Shown here: positions 36,063 through 41,310 of the stretch, piece after piece | How positions within the stretch are numbered: position 1 is the stretch's first letter | Layout of the letters: every line of letters begins with the position of its first letter | Origin: an uncultured Bacteroidales bacterium | Lineage (GTDB): Bacteria > Bacteroidota > Bacteroidia > Bacteroidales > Bacteroidaceae | Reading direction: 5' to 3' | DNA: 64,000 nucleotides | Assembly (NCBI GenBank): GCA_902774335.1 | Contig: CACYHW010000016.1 | Coordinates: forward strand, 1-64,000 | The notes under the pieces: model-generated | Database searches by the model: none | Told to the model about the DNA's origin: nothing | The model's input: the letters and a program-made list of their open reading frames with translations, nothing else | Position numbers and translations under genes: made by a program

Positions 36063-37427
36063 TTATTTATTCAGTGCATCAGCCGATGCCATATACTTGG
36101 CAAGCTCCTCGTCGCTCAGGCGGAAATCGGGCAGATCGCCGGCCAGATACTGGTCGTAAGCCGACATATCTACGAATCCGTGACCTGACAGGTTGAACAG
36201 GATAGTCTTCTGCTCGCCGGTCTCCTTGCACTTGAGGGCCTCGCGTACAGTAGCAGCGATAGCGTGGCAGGACTCGGGAGCGGGGATGATACCCTCGGTC
36301 TGGGCAAACAGCACGCCAGCCTTGAATGACTCGTTCTGCTCAATGTCAACAGCCTCCATGTAGCCGTCCTTCATAAGCTGTGAAAGCACAACACCTGCAC
36401 CGTGATAACGCAGACCGCCGGCGTGGATGGTAGCGGGCTTGAATGTGTGACCCAGAGTATACATAGGCAGCAGCGGAGTCATACCTGACTCATCACCAAA
36501 GTCATACTCGAACTTACCGCGGGTAAGCTTGGGGCATGAAGCCGGCTCGGCAGCAATGTAACGTGTCTTCTTACCCTCCTTGATGGTGTGACGCATGAAC
36601 GGCAGAGCCAGACCGCAGAAGTTTGAACCACCGCCAAAGCAGGCGATTACGATATCAGGATACTCACCTGTCATCTCCATCTGCTTCTCAGCCTCAAGGC
36701 CTATTACGGTCTGATGCATGCACACGTGGTTCAGAACCGAACCCAGAGCGTACTTGCAGTTAGGAGTGGTAACAGCCAGCTCGATAGCCTCGGAGATAGC
36801 GCAACCCAGTGAACCCTGATCGTTGGGGTTGACAGTAAGGATATCCTTACCGGCGCGGGTTGACATAGAGGGTGAGGGAGTGATGGCAGCACCGAATGTC
36901 TGCATGATCGAACGGCGGTAAGGCTTCTGGTTGTAGCTGGCCTTAACCATATATACAGCGCAGTCAATGCCGAACTTCTTGGTGGCATATGAGAGAGCGC
37001 CGCCCCACTGACCGGCACCTGTCTCGGTGGTCAGGTTGGTGATACCCTGCTTCTTGGCATAGTAAGCCTGTGCCAGAGCCGAGTTCAGCTTGTGTGAACC
37101 AGCAGGTGATACGCTCTCGTTCTTGAAGTAGATGTGTGCGGGAGTTCCCAGAGCCTCCTCAAGCTCATAAGCACGTACCAGCGGGGTGCAGCGGTATGAA
37201 GCGTACTGCTGACGGATATCCTCAGGTATCTCGATCCACTCATCCTTCTGGTTGAGCTCCTGGTTGGCGCACTCCTCCACAAAGATGGGGTACAGATCCT
37301 CGGGCTTGAGCGGCTGGCGTGTGCCGGGATGGAGGAAAGGCAGAGGTTTGTTGGGCATGACGGCCTGGATGTTGAACCAAGCCTTTGGAATTTCACTCTC
37401 AGCAAGCAAATACTTTTTCTGTTTCAT
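36063..37427 (-). CDS. trpB: tryptophan synthase beta-like protein (TrpB2)
   Basis: The 454-residue PLP enzyme condenses indole with serine. The PLP Lys is Lys113 in SPAGSHKLNSALAQA; the substrate motif ETGAGQWGGALSYA, phosphate loop ACFGGGSNFCGLA and the C-terminal NLSGHGFVDMSAYD follow. The N-terminal extension and length mark the TrpB2 class, which works without TrpA and salvages free indole. It stands outside a trp operon and is preceded by a leader with a Trp-codon peptide and competing hairpins. Confidence 0.95.
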   Translation of the reverse strand: MKQKKYLLAESEIPKAWFNIQAVMPNKPLPFLHPGTRQPLKPEDLYPIFVEECANQELNQKDEWIEIPEDIRQQYASYRCTPLVRAYELEEALGTPAHIYFKNESVSPAGSHKLNSALAQAYYAKKQGITNLTTETGAGQWGGALSYATKKFGIDCAVYMVKASYNQKPYRRSIMQTFGAAITPSPSMSTRAGKDILTVNPNDQGSLGCAISEAIELAVTTPNCKYALGSVLNHVCMHQTVIGLEAEKQMEMTGEYPDIVIACFGGGSNFCGLALPFMRHTIKEGKKTRYIAAEPASCPKLTRGKFEYDFGDESGMTPLLPMYTLGHTFKPATIHAGGLRYHGAGVVLSQLMKDGYMEAVDIEQNESFKAGVLFAQTEGIIPAPESCHAIAATVREALKCKETGEQKTILFNLSGHGFVDMSAYDQYLAGDLPDFRLSDEELAKYMASADALNK

Positions 37428-37475: not shown

Positions 37476-37515
37476 ATAAAAGTTTCGGGCCTCGTCGCAG
37501 TTGCGGCAAGGCCCG
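37476..37515 (-). terminator. trpB2 attenuator hairpin
   Basis: In the minus-strand transcript CGGGCCU and AGGCCCG close a 30-base stem-loop (37486-37515) whose upper part UGCCGCA/UGCGACG pairs with one mismatch. It is followed by AAACUUUUAU, a modest U-tract. Its 3' half holds CUGCGAC (37494-37500), which can pair instead with GUCGUAG (37550-37556) next to the leader-peptide stop. Confidence 0.65.
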
Positions 37516-37556
37516 ATATATTGTCTAATACATACAGAGCGTCAACCTCCTACGAC

Positions 37557-37607
37557 TTAGTTCAGTTGTAAGGGCTGCCACCACCAATATGTATTGTTTC
37601 CAGTCAT
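37557..37607 (-). CDS. trpB2 leader peptide with three consecutive Trp codons
   Basis: ATG at 37607, stop TAA at 37557-37559; the peptide is MTGNNTYWWWQPLQLN. Trp codons occupy 37578-37586. Three consecutive rare Trp codons in a 16-codon frame, between a good promoter and an attenuator-like hairpin before a Trp-synthesis gene, is the classical trp-leader design. A ribosome stalled there would leave the antiterminator segment (37550-37556) free; a ribosome at the stop codon would cover it. Confidence 0.8.
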   Translation of the reverse strand: MTGNNTYWWWQPLQLN

Positions 37608-37626
37608 TGTTTAAACTTAACGGATG

Positions 37627-37634
37627 CAAATATA
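37627..37634 (-). promoter_or_regulatory. -7 promoter box of the trpB2 leader
   Basis: Minus-strand TATATTTG, full consensus, with CAAA (a TTTG on the minus strand, 37658-37661) 23 bases upstream. Transcription would start about 15 bases before the leader-peptide ATG. Confidence 0.6.
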
Positions 37635-38700: not shown

Positions 38701-41310
38701 TTATCTCAGGCCGTTAATGTTCTCGTCCAGCCAGTCATAACGTGCCCAGAATCCCTGGATCATGCGGCTTATCGCGTAGTCAAAGGATCCGCGGTCGTTG
38801 TTCTGGGTGTTGCTTGTCTTGTCAAACCACAGGATGCGGTTGAACCTCTCAGACTCACGGATGCTGTCGGCCATCAGCTCAATGTACTGCGGAAGCTCGG
38901 CGAACTTGACCTTAAGCACGTTCCAGCGGGCAATCAGAGAATCCCTGAACTCCGGATCCTGGAGCATAGTCTCAAAGTAGTAACGGCCCGAGCCGGTCTT
39001 GGCGCCGGTCTTGAGCATAGCCCAGTTCTTGGTCAGATCCACACCGTTTTCATAGCAGGTAGGCATGAATGTGTGGTAGTCAAAGTCCCAAACCGGACCA
39101 AAGCAGAACTTACCGCCAGTGTGGGTCTGGTCCATATAGAGATATGTGCTGTGAGGGCCGTTCGAGGGCCATGTGTTGTAAGAGTCATGGTTCATAGTCA
39201 TCTCCTGGATCAGAGCAAAGTCTATTGCGGTGTTCACGTCAATATAGTCGCGGTACTTCCTTTCATAGAACTGCTGCCTGTCGCTAAGAGACTTCTCCAT
39301 CTCGTTAATCTTGCCCTGGAGATACTGGAATGCCGGATGTCCGGATGTAATCACGCTTTCGTCCTCCAACTCGTCCGGATCCTTGAACATATAAGGCAGA
39401 TTGTAATATTGCGAGTAGAATCCGGGATCCTTATTGCCGTCATAGTTGTAATAGGTGTCAATCTCCATAAAGAATCCGCCCTGTGAGGGATCCGTCAGGT
39501 TGGGGGCATCAATGTTAATGCGGTCGTCGTCAATCTTGGGAGCCTCGCACAGATAGTAGTTACCGCGGTGCTCGCCGTTGATTACCAACTCTACAAAACG
39601 TCCGCTGACGGTGTAGGGCAGGTTGGTCTGACGTGACAGCCAGAAGGCTGCGTCGTTACGCATCAGCGTGTAATCCTTATAGTTGGCAAGCAGAATCCAG
39701 CGCTTGTGCTTTTTCATACCCAGTATCTTATGCTTGTGGTTGAGCTTGAGAGCATAAGGCTTCTTGTCGGTCTCGGTCCATGTTCCGTTACCGCGTCCGC
39801 GGATGCTCAGAGAGTCATCCTGATACTGAACCCTTCCGTCGGGATATACAATCTCAATGCTGCACTTTTCAAGCCACTGGGTCTTGCTCTTGATAGGCTT
39901 GCGGTTGCCGTCCAGATCCTTGGGAGTGGTAATCCTTACAATGGGCAGGTTGGTGTTGTTCATCACCACAGTATAATCCTTGTGCAGGTCATACTTCCAA
40001 ACCGATATGGTGATAGGCTGGGTCAGGTCCAGAGTATTATATTTAGTGGTACGGGCCTCGATGGCGCTGTCACCCACAGTCAGACGGTCACCGTTATGGC
40101 TTATTCTGAGCCTCTGTCCCTTGAAGTTGGTGGTAGCGGGCAGCACGGCCGAGAATGTCTTGGTATTTACGTCATAATACATTCTTGATATATCGTCGTC
40201 CGGACCGTAAATGTAGTTGAGCAGTCTTATGCGGTCAATCACCAACGATACCTTCTCGACGGTAAATTTTTCTGACTTCAAGCTGTAGGTGGGAGTTGTA
40301 ACCGCAACCACACCCTCATCCTTCTTTGTAGAACCGTTTGCAAAGCTCACCTGAATGGTCCAGGTGCTGTCCGGCTGGAACTCGCAAGCTCCGGTCAGGA
40401 ACTTCTCGCTGCTGGTGCAGGCGGTATCCATAATGGCAATATTCACATCCTGACCGGCGTTAAGCAGCAGGTTCCAGGGCACAGTGCGGAAACGAACCGT
40501 AGCCATACCGCCGTCCTCAAAGGCCGATACATCGCCCGATACCCTGTGCAGCTCCTTATATAAAGGCTCTTCGGCAGGAATAATCTTTACAACTAAACGG
40601 TCCGAGTACATAACCGTATCAGACTCCGTGTCCTGGAGAGCAAGCCTTATCACATCGCCCGTCTTTTCCGGGTAACGCAGTCCAACGTTGATCATCCAGG
40701 TGCTGTCCTTCTGCATCACAGGCTTGGTCATGTTAACGGGGTAGGATGTACCCAGCGTATCCACAAAGAACAGACTCACGCTGTCGCTTCCCACCAGAGT
40801 GTACGGACGTGTGCGGATAAGAATCTGAGCCGTTCCGCCCTCGTTTATCACAAACTCATCCTTAAGGTTGATGCGCATGCTCATTCCCAACTCCGGAACA
40901 AACAGCACCACATCCTGCGATATGTACTTCTTACCCGGGGCACTCACCGTAACGGTAACAATGTCACCGCTCTTGTAACCCTTGAGCAGGTCCACCTTGA
41001 GTGTCCAGAATCCGTCAACCTCCTCGATTGAGGTAATACGTGCATACTTGTAATTCACACCGGCCGTATCCGTCAGAGTCACGTCAATGTCCAGTTCCTC
41101 AGTCAGGACCCATGGAACCTGGCTGGTGCTGAATGTTACCGTAACCTTGTCATCCTCGGTTACGCTCAGTGTGTCCTGAGTAGTCTCAAAACTGAATGTC
41201 TTGTCTTCCAGGTCAAAGACCGGTTTTTCCTCCTGACAGGAGTAAAACAACGCTGCAGCAAACAGGCATACTGCAAACGTTCTGATTCCCTTGCAAATAG
41301 TTTTTCTCAT
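38701..41310 (-). CDS. large CotH-kinase-domain lipoprotein with tandem beta domains
   Basis: The 869-residue product has lipobox FYSC at about 22-25. Residues 30-340 hold three similar beta modules (each with TVTFSTSQVPWVL, AQILIRTRPYTLV or ATVRFRTVPWNLL-type strands), resembling Calx-beta/BACON-like repeats. Residues 470-860 form a CotH domain: SIRGRGNGTW, KPYALKLNHKHKILGMKKHKRWILLANY, GNYYLCEAPKIDDDRI and CFGPVWDFDYHTF, the last holding the metal-binding Asp. CotH proteins are atypical kinases phosphorylating secreted proteins in spore formers; a role in surface-protein modification is possible here. Confidence 0.85.
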   Translation of the reverse strand: MRKTICKGIRTFAVCLFAAALFYSCQEEKPVFDLEDKTFSFETTQDTLSVTEDDKVTVTFSTSQVPWVLTEELDIDVTLTDTAGVNYKYARITSIEEVDGFWTLKVDLLKGYKSGDIVTVTVSAPGKKYISQDVVLFVPELGMSMRINLKDEFVINEGGTAQILIRTRPYTLVGSDSVSLFFVDTLGTSYPVNMTKPVMQKDSTWMINVGLRYPEKTGDVIRLALQDTESDTVMYSDRLVVKIIPAEEPLYKELHRVSGDVSAFEDGGMATVRFRTVPWNLLLNAGQDVNIAIMDTACTSSEKFLTGACEFQPDSTWTIQVSFANGSTKKDEGVVAVTTPTYSLKSEKFTVEKVSLVIDRIRLLNYIYGPDDDISRMYYDVNTKTFSAVLPATTNFKGQRLRISHNGDRLTVGDSAIEARTTKYNTLDLTQPITISVWKYDLHKDYTVVMNNTNLPIVRITTPKDLDGNRKPIKSKTQWLEKCSIEIVYPDGRVQYQDDSLSIRGRGNGTWTETDKKPYALKLNHKHKILGMKKHKRWILLANYKDYTLMRNDAAFWLSRQTNLPYTVSGRFVELVINGEHRGNYYLCEAPKIDDDRINIDAPNLTDPSQGGFFMEIDTYYNYDGNKDPGFYSQYYNLPYMFKDPDELEDESVITSGHPAFQYLQGKINEMEKSLSDRQQFYERKYRDYIDVNTAIDFALIQEMTMNHDSYNTWPSNGPHSTYLYMDQTHTGGKFCFGPVWDFDYHTFMPTCYENGVDLTKNWAMLKTGAKTGSGRYYFETMLQDPEFRDSLIARWNVLKVKFAELPQYIELMADSIRESERFNRILWFDKTSNTQNNDRGSFDYAISRMIQGFWARYDWLDENINGLR

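Follow-up and report, generated by a model that had tools for sequence, protein, structure and literature searches.

A predicted tryptophan attenuator of the Bacteroid-trp kind ahead of a stand-alone trpB2 gene in the Bacteroidales

The E. coli trp leader, trpL, carries Trp codons in its leader peptide and forms a leader hairpin and a terminator hairpin, and the position of the ribosome decides the outcome. In trpL, segment 2 forms a helix with the terminator 5' arm (CGGGC:GCCCG, recovered by the script applied to the leaders described here). A candidate Trp attenuator has also been predicted before trpB2A in Corynebacterium diphtheriae, according to the accessible text of Seliverstov et al. 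(2005, PMC1262725). In the Bacteroidota the recognised family is Bacteroid-trp (RF01692). The accessible text of Weinberg et al. (2010, PMC2864571) lists it as a probable cis-regulatory RNA and not as a riboswitch. As far as the available part of a 2013 survey of regulatory-RNA regulons goes, Rfam then contained only four motifs for amino-acid attenuators (His, Leu, Thr and Trp, the last being RF00513), so RF01692 was not treated there among the amino-acid attenuators.

We analysed a 64 kb stretch of DNA from an uncultured Bacteroidales bacterium, called the window below. It contains a predicted ribosome-mediated Trp attenuator ahead of a stand-alone trpB2, and the sequence features of this element are confirmed. 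It resembles trpL in its Trp codons, its two hairpins and the deciding role that the ribosome position would have. It differs in geometry, a point on which the original prediction for this DNA was silent: segment 2 of the window pairs with the loop and the top of the 3' arm of the terminator. It is like the C. diphtheriae case in being a candidate Trp attenuator ahead of a gene named trpB2. That case differs, going by the same accessible text (PMC1262725), in that it concerns an operon, trpB2A, in another phylum and is termed classical. The conserved complementary triples gGCC-rGCy-GGCC given there for Actinobacteria were not seen in the window leader.

Our literature search covered the subscription literature in part. 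Within that scope we found no description of a Bacteroidota trpB2 preceded by a Trp attenuator, or of an antiterminator that pairs with a terminator loop, and no worked-out switching mechanism for the Trp attenuation that Rfam names in Bacteroidota. A comparative survey of attenuators made in 2010 by Lopatovskaya and others may cover this phylum.

The leader element and its relation to Bacteroid-trp

For the minus strand the original prediction listed a -7 box, an ATG frame shortly after it, three Trp codons, GUCGUAG following the stop, and a hairpin with a U-rich tail before trpB2. All of these are there (Table 1), with the ATG 19 bases past the box. By sequence and fold an intrinsic terminator is present between the leader and trpB2, and its U run is short (CUUUUAU). 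The predicted leader fold is a long hairpin containing the Trp codons, then the terminator.

Table 1. The trpB2 leader region of the window, in window coordinates
Feature	Position	Strand	Evidence
-7 promoter box TATATTTG	37627..37634	minus	sequence
Leader peptide frame MTGNNTYWWWQPLQLN including stop, 16 codons (ATG at 37607, TAA at 37559-37557)	37557..37607	minus	sequence, genus conservation
Outer helix of leader structure, 5' strand (AAUACAUAU)	37587..37595	minus	fold and RF01692 model alignment
Three consecutive Trp (UGG) control codons	37578..37586	minus	sequence; WWW in 12/12 genus type-A leaders
Segment 1 (CUUACAACU)	37564..37572	minus	predicted interrupted pairing with segment 2 if the leader is ribosome-free (fold, model alignment)
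Segment 2 (GUCGUAG), putative antiterminator strand directly 3' of leader stop	37550..37556	minus	sequence, pairing counts
Outer helix, 3' strand (GUAUGUAUU)	37527..37535	minus	fold and RF01692 model alignment
Intrinsic-terminator-like hairpin UCGGGCCUUGCCGC-AACU-GCGACGAGGCCCGA, 32 nt, -23.6 kcal/mol	37485..37516	minus	fold
Segment 2 target at terminator apex, CUGCGAC (loop CU and top of 3' arm)	37494..37500	minus	pairing counts
Terminator U-rich tail AACUUUUAU	37476..37484	minus	sequence
trpB2, stand-alone TrpB-like tryptophan synthase beta	36063..37427	minus	TIGR01415, 601.3 bits, cut-off 518.85

It is worth asking if such a leader could arise by chance. WWW occurs once in the ATG-started frames of 6-45 codons on both strands of the window, and that one case is the leader frame. 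The predicted fold of the 150-nt leader has an energy of -53.9 kcal/mol; 200 dinucleotide shuffles give -33.4 +/- 3.65, and none of them is as good (z -5.6). The frame is also conserved. trpB2 scores above the TIGR01415 cut-off in 27 of the 37 genomes of the genus. Trp-codon frames were found upstream of these orthologous genes, as the original prediction had expected of relatives. Twelve of the 27 full-length loci have a leader of the window type, here called type A, with WWW and LQL or nearly so, and the WWW frame is kept in all of them; its translation is predicted. Nine loci have a leader of a second type, which ends in RWRGVA or RWRGAAF and a short tail; one has an FFFFWW leader, and in five no leader was found. 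A TAnnTTTG box lies within 60 nt upstream of all 12 type-A leaders. The same box is found in 81 of 905 60-nt intervals of the same upstream regions, a background in which the leader boxes themselves are counted. A -33-like TTTG stands 23 nt above the -7 box in the window, and TTG stands at 19 in 10 of the 12. Chance or artefact is ruled out as the origin of the leader by the shuffled folds, the window-wide WWW count and the conservation.

By alignment to the family model, the window leader is a diverged relative of Bacteroid-trp. The original prediction, made without database searches, left open if this leader had already been described; it could not know of the recognised family that the leader resembles. 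At Rfam gathering thresholds there is no match anywhere in the window. At relaxed thresholds RF01692 matches over its full length (model positions 1-131) at 37632-37505 with 28.2 bits and E 0.3, which is below the gathering cut-off of 49. At the orthologous trpB2 site of two congeners (G027 and G005) the model scores 49.9 and 49.2 bits, above the cut-off, and these are the two such matches in the 37 genomes of the genus. In the alignment of the window copy the leader hairpin pairs and the UGG codons fall at matching model positions, with UGGUGGUG and AAGUCGUA aligned, and by our own count 5 of 24 pairs are non-standard. The family lies upstream of Bacteroidota trp genes, and in the window that gene is trpB2. 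The Trp codons, the long leader hairpin and the start of the terminator are shared with RF01692; unlike the copies at trp operons, the window copy precedes a stand-alone trpB2. The model match stops inside the 5' arm of the terminator, so the pairing between segment 2 and the terminator apex (2:apex) falls outside the model.

The source genome has a second RF01692 copy, at 42.8 bits and so below the cut-off, before trpB1. This trpB1 heads a putative trpBEGDCFA operon (L072), whose gene names were read from protein starts, those of trpD and trpA also from their cut-off-scored searches. Across 201 genomes of the family RF01692 is found at E<=0.1 in 81 and above the cut-off in 34. All listed family matches were examined, apart from those of the window genus that were already in the set. 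In 28 of the best 30 family loci the match is a short distance upstream of trpB1; of the other two matches, one precedes trpD and one is followed by trpB1 after about 770 nt. In at least seven further genomes of five other genera a TIGR01415 match follows an RF01692 match at a distance of 88-218 nt. Two contigs (G103:C6 and G120:C1) each have two same-strand matches, separated by about 5 and 6.5 kb, and these are perhaps trp operons split into two attenuated units. One genome (G211) has three matches.

Pairing between segment 2 and the terminator apex

In the window GUCGUAG and CUGCGAC form seven contiguous pairs, one of them U-G, just as originally claimed. The recurrence of this pairing was scored over a set of leader elements. 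From 121 elements we dropped L238 and L240 (without a leader frame), L219 (without a terminator, at a contig end), and L176, L212 and L223 (wrong terminator or frame; L176 and L223 are one place), which leaves 115. The terminator of L006 was placed by hand. The duplex is the best contiguous one between the leader region after the Trp codons and the terminator apex, taken as loop -2 to +6. It has at least seven contiguous pairs in 96 of the 115 elements and at least six in 110. When apices were swapped among 76 distinct elements, an element's own apex gave a mean of 7.16 pairs and a swapped one 6.09 +/- 0.12 (z 9.0, with 0 of 5000 as high). Reversed-sequence apices still give z 4.1 (0 of 2000 as high), so part of the swap signal is shared ancestry.

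Column counts were made on 101 alignable elements, 14 of the 115 being left out since they have no motif anchor or fewer than six pairs; the registers were picked by best pairing, which limits these counts. Positions 2-5 are paired in all 101 elements, position 6 in 100, position 7 in 90, position 8 in 87 and position 1 in 86. Twelve of the 15 elements unpaired at position 1 have A-C there. Both sides change at positions 1, 2, 3, 6 and 7. The pair types are G-C, A-U, U-A and C-G at position 1, U-A and C-G at position 2, C-G and U-A at position 3, and A-U and G-C at positions 6 and 7. The window genus provides an example, where GUCGUAAG:CUUACGAC of other elements has become GUCGUAG:CUGCGAC, an A-U to G-C change at position 7. 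Within the genus the core pairing is invariant among the 12 type-A trpB2 leaders. These compensatory changes support an alternative antiterminator pairing of segment 2 with the apex; that this pairing would exclude the terminator is a geometric argument. An extension of the window helix by GUUG:CAAC was considered and rejected as not conserved, L006, L008, L009 and L011 having GGUC.

It could be argued that this is an ordinary attenuator of the E. coli type, with a 2:3 helix between a leader strand and the terminator 5' arm. The match to loop and 3' arm would then follow from the similarity of segments 1-4, which are near repeats of one another. We think this unlikely. In many elements segment 2 does look like the 5' arm (GUCGU), and 3:4 pairing then forces part of 2:4; a 5'-arm pairing is also possible in the second leader type on the genus trpB2 and in two Paludibacter-like leaders. 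However, in L031 (UCGUGAG:CUCACGA) 3:4 pairing could account for only three of the seven pairs, and the rest are in the loop, where the stem does not need them. In the L077 group (GCUGUAAGUC:GACUUACAGC) it could account for only four of ten, the rest again being in the loop. The target is centred on the loop in L210 (UUCGUGAG:CUCACGAA) and L115 (CUCGUGAG:CUCACGAG), with two 5'-arm bases included. In L224 and L230 a G to A change in segment 2 accompanies a C to U change in the target, whereas the 5' arm remains G. The swap test agrees: the loop alone gives z 6.7, whereas the lower arms have no effect (z -0.97 for the 5' arm, z 0.96 for the 3' arm). The duplex overlaps the terminator loop in 111 of the 115 elements, and the E. 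coli control gives the 5' arm.

Pairing with the apex must also be considered in time. Partition-function folding was applied to 110 elements, five of the 115 being left out for having fewer than six pairs. When the apex has just emerged, the mean probability of 2:apex is 0.94 with a ribosome stalled on the first Trp codon (above 0.5 in 108 of 110), 0.11 with the leader unoccupied (12 of 110) and 0.01 with a ribosome at the stop (1 of 110). Scrambling segment 2 lowers it to 0.03. The original prediction that a stalled ribosome frees segment 2 and one at the stop masks it is thus reproduced in these folds. As the 3' arm lengthens in the stalled state, the terminator overtakes 2:apex at about +4 to +5 nt. 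On the complete hairpin at equilibrium, still with the ribosome stalled, the mean is 0.02, with 2:apex above 0.5 in 1 of 110 and the terminator winning in 109. A simple equilibrium switch is therefore ruled out, which leaves a kinetic one.

With the polymerase at U7 the result depends on how much RNA it shields. The stalled mean is 0.54 with 10 nt shielded, 0.75 with 12, 0.73 with 14 and 0.50 with 16, and the elements above 0.5 number 61, 86, 94 and 59 of 110 respectively. At 14 nt the unoccupied leader exceeds 0.5 in three elements and the leader with a ribosome at the stop in none. The window element itself, stalled, has 0.83 at 14 nt and 0.99 at 16, and 0.0 at 12 and 10. In the same folding the E. 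coli trp leader gives its known 2:3 pairing and also prefers the complete terminator. Since this known attenuator behaves likewise, the loss at equilibrium is not fatal to the model.

The strength of the terminator could still be taken to mean that the leader responds to Trp by the ribosome or Rho alone, which would set read-through without any role for the pairing of segment 2 with the apex. Two points count for such an explanation: at equilibrium the 2:apex helix is much weaker than the terminator, and ribosome occupancy by itself can alter termination. Against it, the pairing is conserved and covaries, and a ribosome on the Trp codons would be about 60 nt from the hairpin, too distant to block it alone. 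We consider it quite improbable. That the window has a decayed trp leader, now without function, is hardly credible to us. Leaders are judged present in 42 of 134 trpB2 loci (see below) and none was found in the close relatives L014-L016, which would fit decay, but all 12 type-A loci of the genus have kept the frame, the three Trp codons, segment 2, its target and the terminator intact.

Distribution of Trp leaders before trpB2

Trp leaders are patchily distributed before Bacteroidales trpB2, and many trpB2 genes are without one. The survey covered 134 loci, namely 27 from the genus, 80 named and 27 from the family; the last are new loci taken from the 160 of 201 family genomes that have trpB2 at E<=1e-100. 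A short frame dense in Trp lies within 350 nt upstream in 46 of the 134; the antisense strand gives 6 and shuffled sequences 4.3. Four of the 46 (L014, L015, L083 and L111) were judged by eye to be non-leaders. On a quick trpB2 tree (FastTree) at least 18 changes between leader and none are required, a count made on a tree with many weak branches and with a 'none' class that includes leaders missed by the scan.

The surroundings of trpB2 vary too. In L014-L016 (G032, G006 and G009) trpB2 begins right after another gene, judged by eye to be CotH-like. The attenuator may have been lost there and trpB2 joined to that gene. The window has a gene similar to this neighbour at 38701-41310. In L006, L008 and L011 a palindromic insert containing GGGGACAGACCCC, GGGGTCAGACCCC or GGGGACTGTCCCC sits between the leader terminator and trpB2 and, judged by eye, resembles a small mobile repeat. 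The spacer from leader ATG to trpB2 match is 291-331 nt in these three versus 200-236 in the other type-A loci. In L073 and L074, which have the second leader type, a 728-aa gene (glutamine-synthetase-like) and a 1201-aa gene (PurL-like), both labels assigned by eye, lie directly 3' of trpB2 on the same strand. Here trpB2 may not be monocistronic.

The second leader type was seen before trpB2 in L018-L022, L024-L027 and L109. Its terminators differ from those of type A and are most often GUCCGUCCC...GGCGGAUUUUUU, and the genus genomes that have it give no RF01692 match above the cut-off. For these leaders (type B, ..WRWRGVA), a 5'-arm pairing GUGGGGUGG:CCGUCCCAC fits L022, L024, L026 and L027, and GGAGCGG:CCGCUCC was seen by eye in L019 and L020. 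We dropped the claim of such a pairing because a 10 x 10 swap matrix has no difference between own and swapped. In L100, L104 and L119, on Paludibacter-like and other Bacteroidales trpB2 genes, WRW replaces WWW. The strand around the leader stop in L100 and L104 (e.g. UUAAACAA) is by eye complementary to the terminator 5' arm plus loop. The leader of L013 (G011), MKRNAQSFFFFWWRLTEFPGSVG, has four Phe codons preceding two Trp codons, and no 2:apex pairing of more than four pairs was found in it.

Proposed mechanism and possible indole salvage

We consider it likely, from sequence and modelled folds, that the window element is a transcription attenuator of the Bacteroid-trp kind that senses tRNA-Trp and controls the stand-alone trpB2 through a kinetic 2:apex switch. 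The original idea of trp-attenuator logic on a stand-alone trpB2 in Bacteroidales is supported by the conserved frame, the covarying pairing and the predicted folds, so that the part of its refutation test open to computation has turned out favourable to it. Together with the promoter box and the terminator-like hairpin, these are the parts that rest on sequence and calculation. Translation, stalling, antitermination, steric exclusion and the role in indole salvage are what we infer, as follows.

With sufficient charged tRNA-Trp the ribosome would reach the leader stop and cover segment 2. The terminator would then fold and trpB2 would be off. With Trp-tRNA scarce the ribosome would halt on the UGG codons and mask segment 1, leaving segment 2 free. 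Free segment 2 would capture the terminator apex, that is the loop and the top of the 3' arm, as it exits from the polymerase and before the lower 3' arm is available. The resulting helix of about 7-10 pairs would sit at the loop with nearly no linker to the remaining 3' arm and should be incompatible with a closed stem. The argument that the two cannot coexist is a geometric one, from the very short linkers. With its terminator blocked by the apex helix, trpB2 would be transcribed, and TrpB2 would then probably form Trp from indole and serine. In an untranslated leader 1:2 would fold, leading to termination.

The gene content of the genomes was examined with this in mind. In the 12 type-A genomes trpA is above its cut-off in seven and trpD in seven (one more being a contig-end fragment), and a trpB1-like cross-match of TIGR01415 is found in seven. 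All three genes were unfound in four of the 12 (G005, G010, G019 and G033, with completeness of 82, 62, 100 and 85%). They were also unfound in all nine second-type genomes (77-97% complete), where weak TIGR01415 cross-matches in two genomes (E 6e-4 and 7e-4) were not counted as trpB1. If the pathway is truly absent, TrpB2 can use only indole from outside. That trpA, trpD and trpB1 were not found in these genomes suggests regulated indole salvage. A role of TrpB2 in indole salvage has been reported in Thermococcus kodakarensis, a report cited in the accessible text of PMC11085991.

The 2:apex pairing would give Bacteroid-trp a specific switching mechanism and would account for the odd conservation of its terminator loop. 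If this is true, attenuation can work without sequestering the terminator 5' arm, and searches built on 2:3 overlap could miss this class. A broader proposal, on which we are evenly divided, is that Bacteroidota Trp leaders are a separate attenuation architecture, in which co-transcriptional capture of the loop would exclude the stem by topology and not by competition for the 5' arm. The module would have been placed patchily, perhaps by repeated recruitment, before stand-alone trpB2 genes. Bacteria of gut and rumen, some of them without the rest of the Trp pathway, could thereby switch indole salvage by the charging of Trp-tRNA. A leader on a stand-alone trpB2 in genomes where trpA, trpD and trpB1 were not found suggests that Trp controls the uptake of community indole into Trp.
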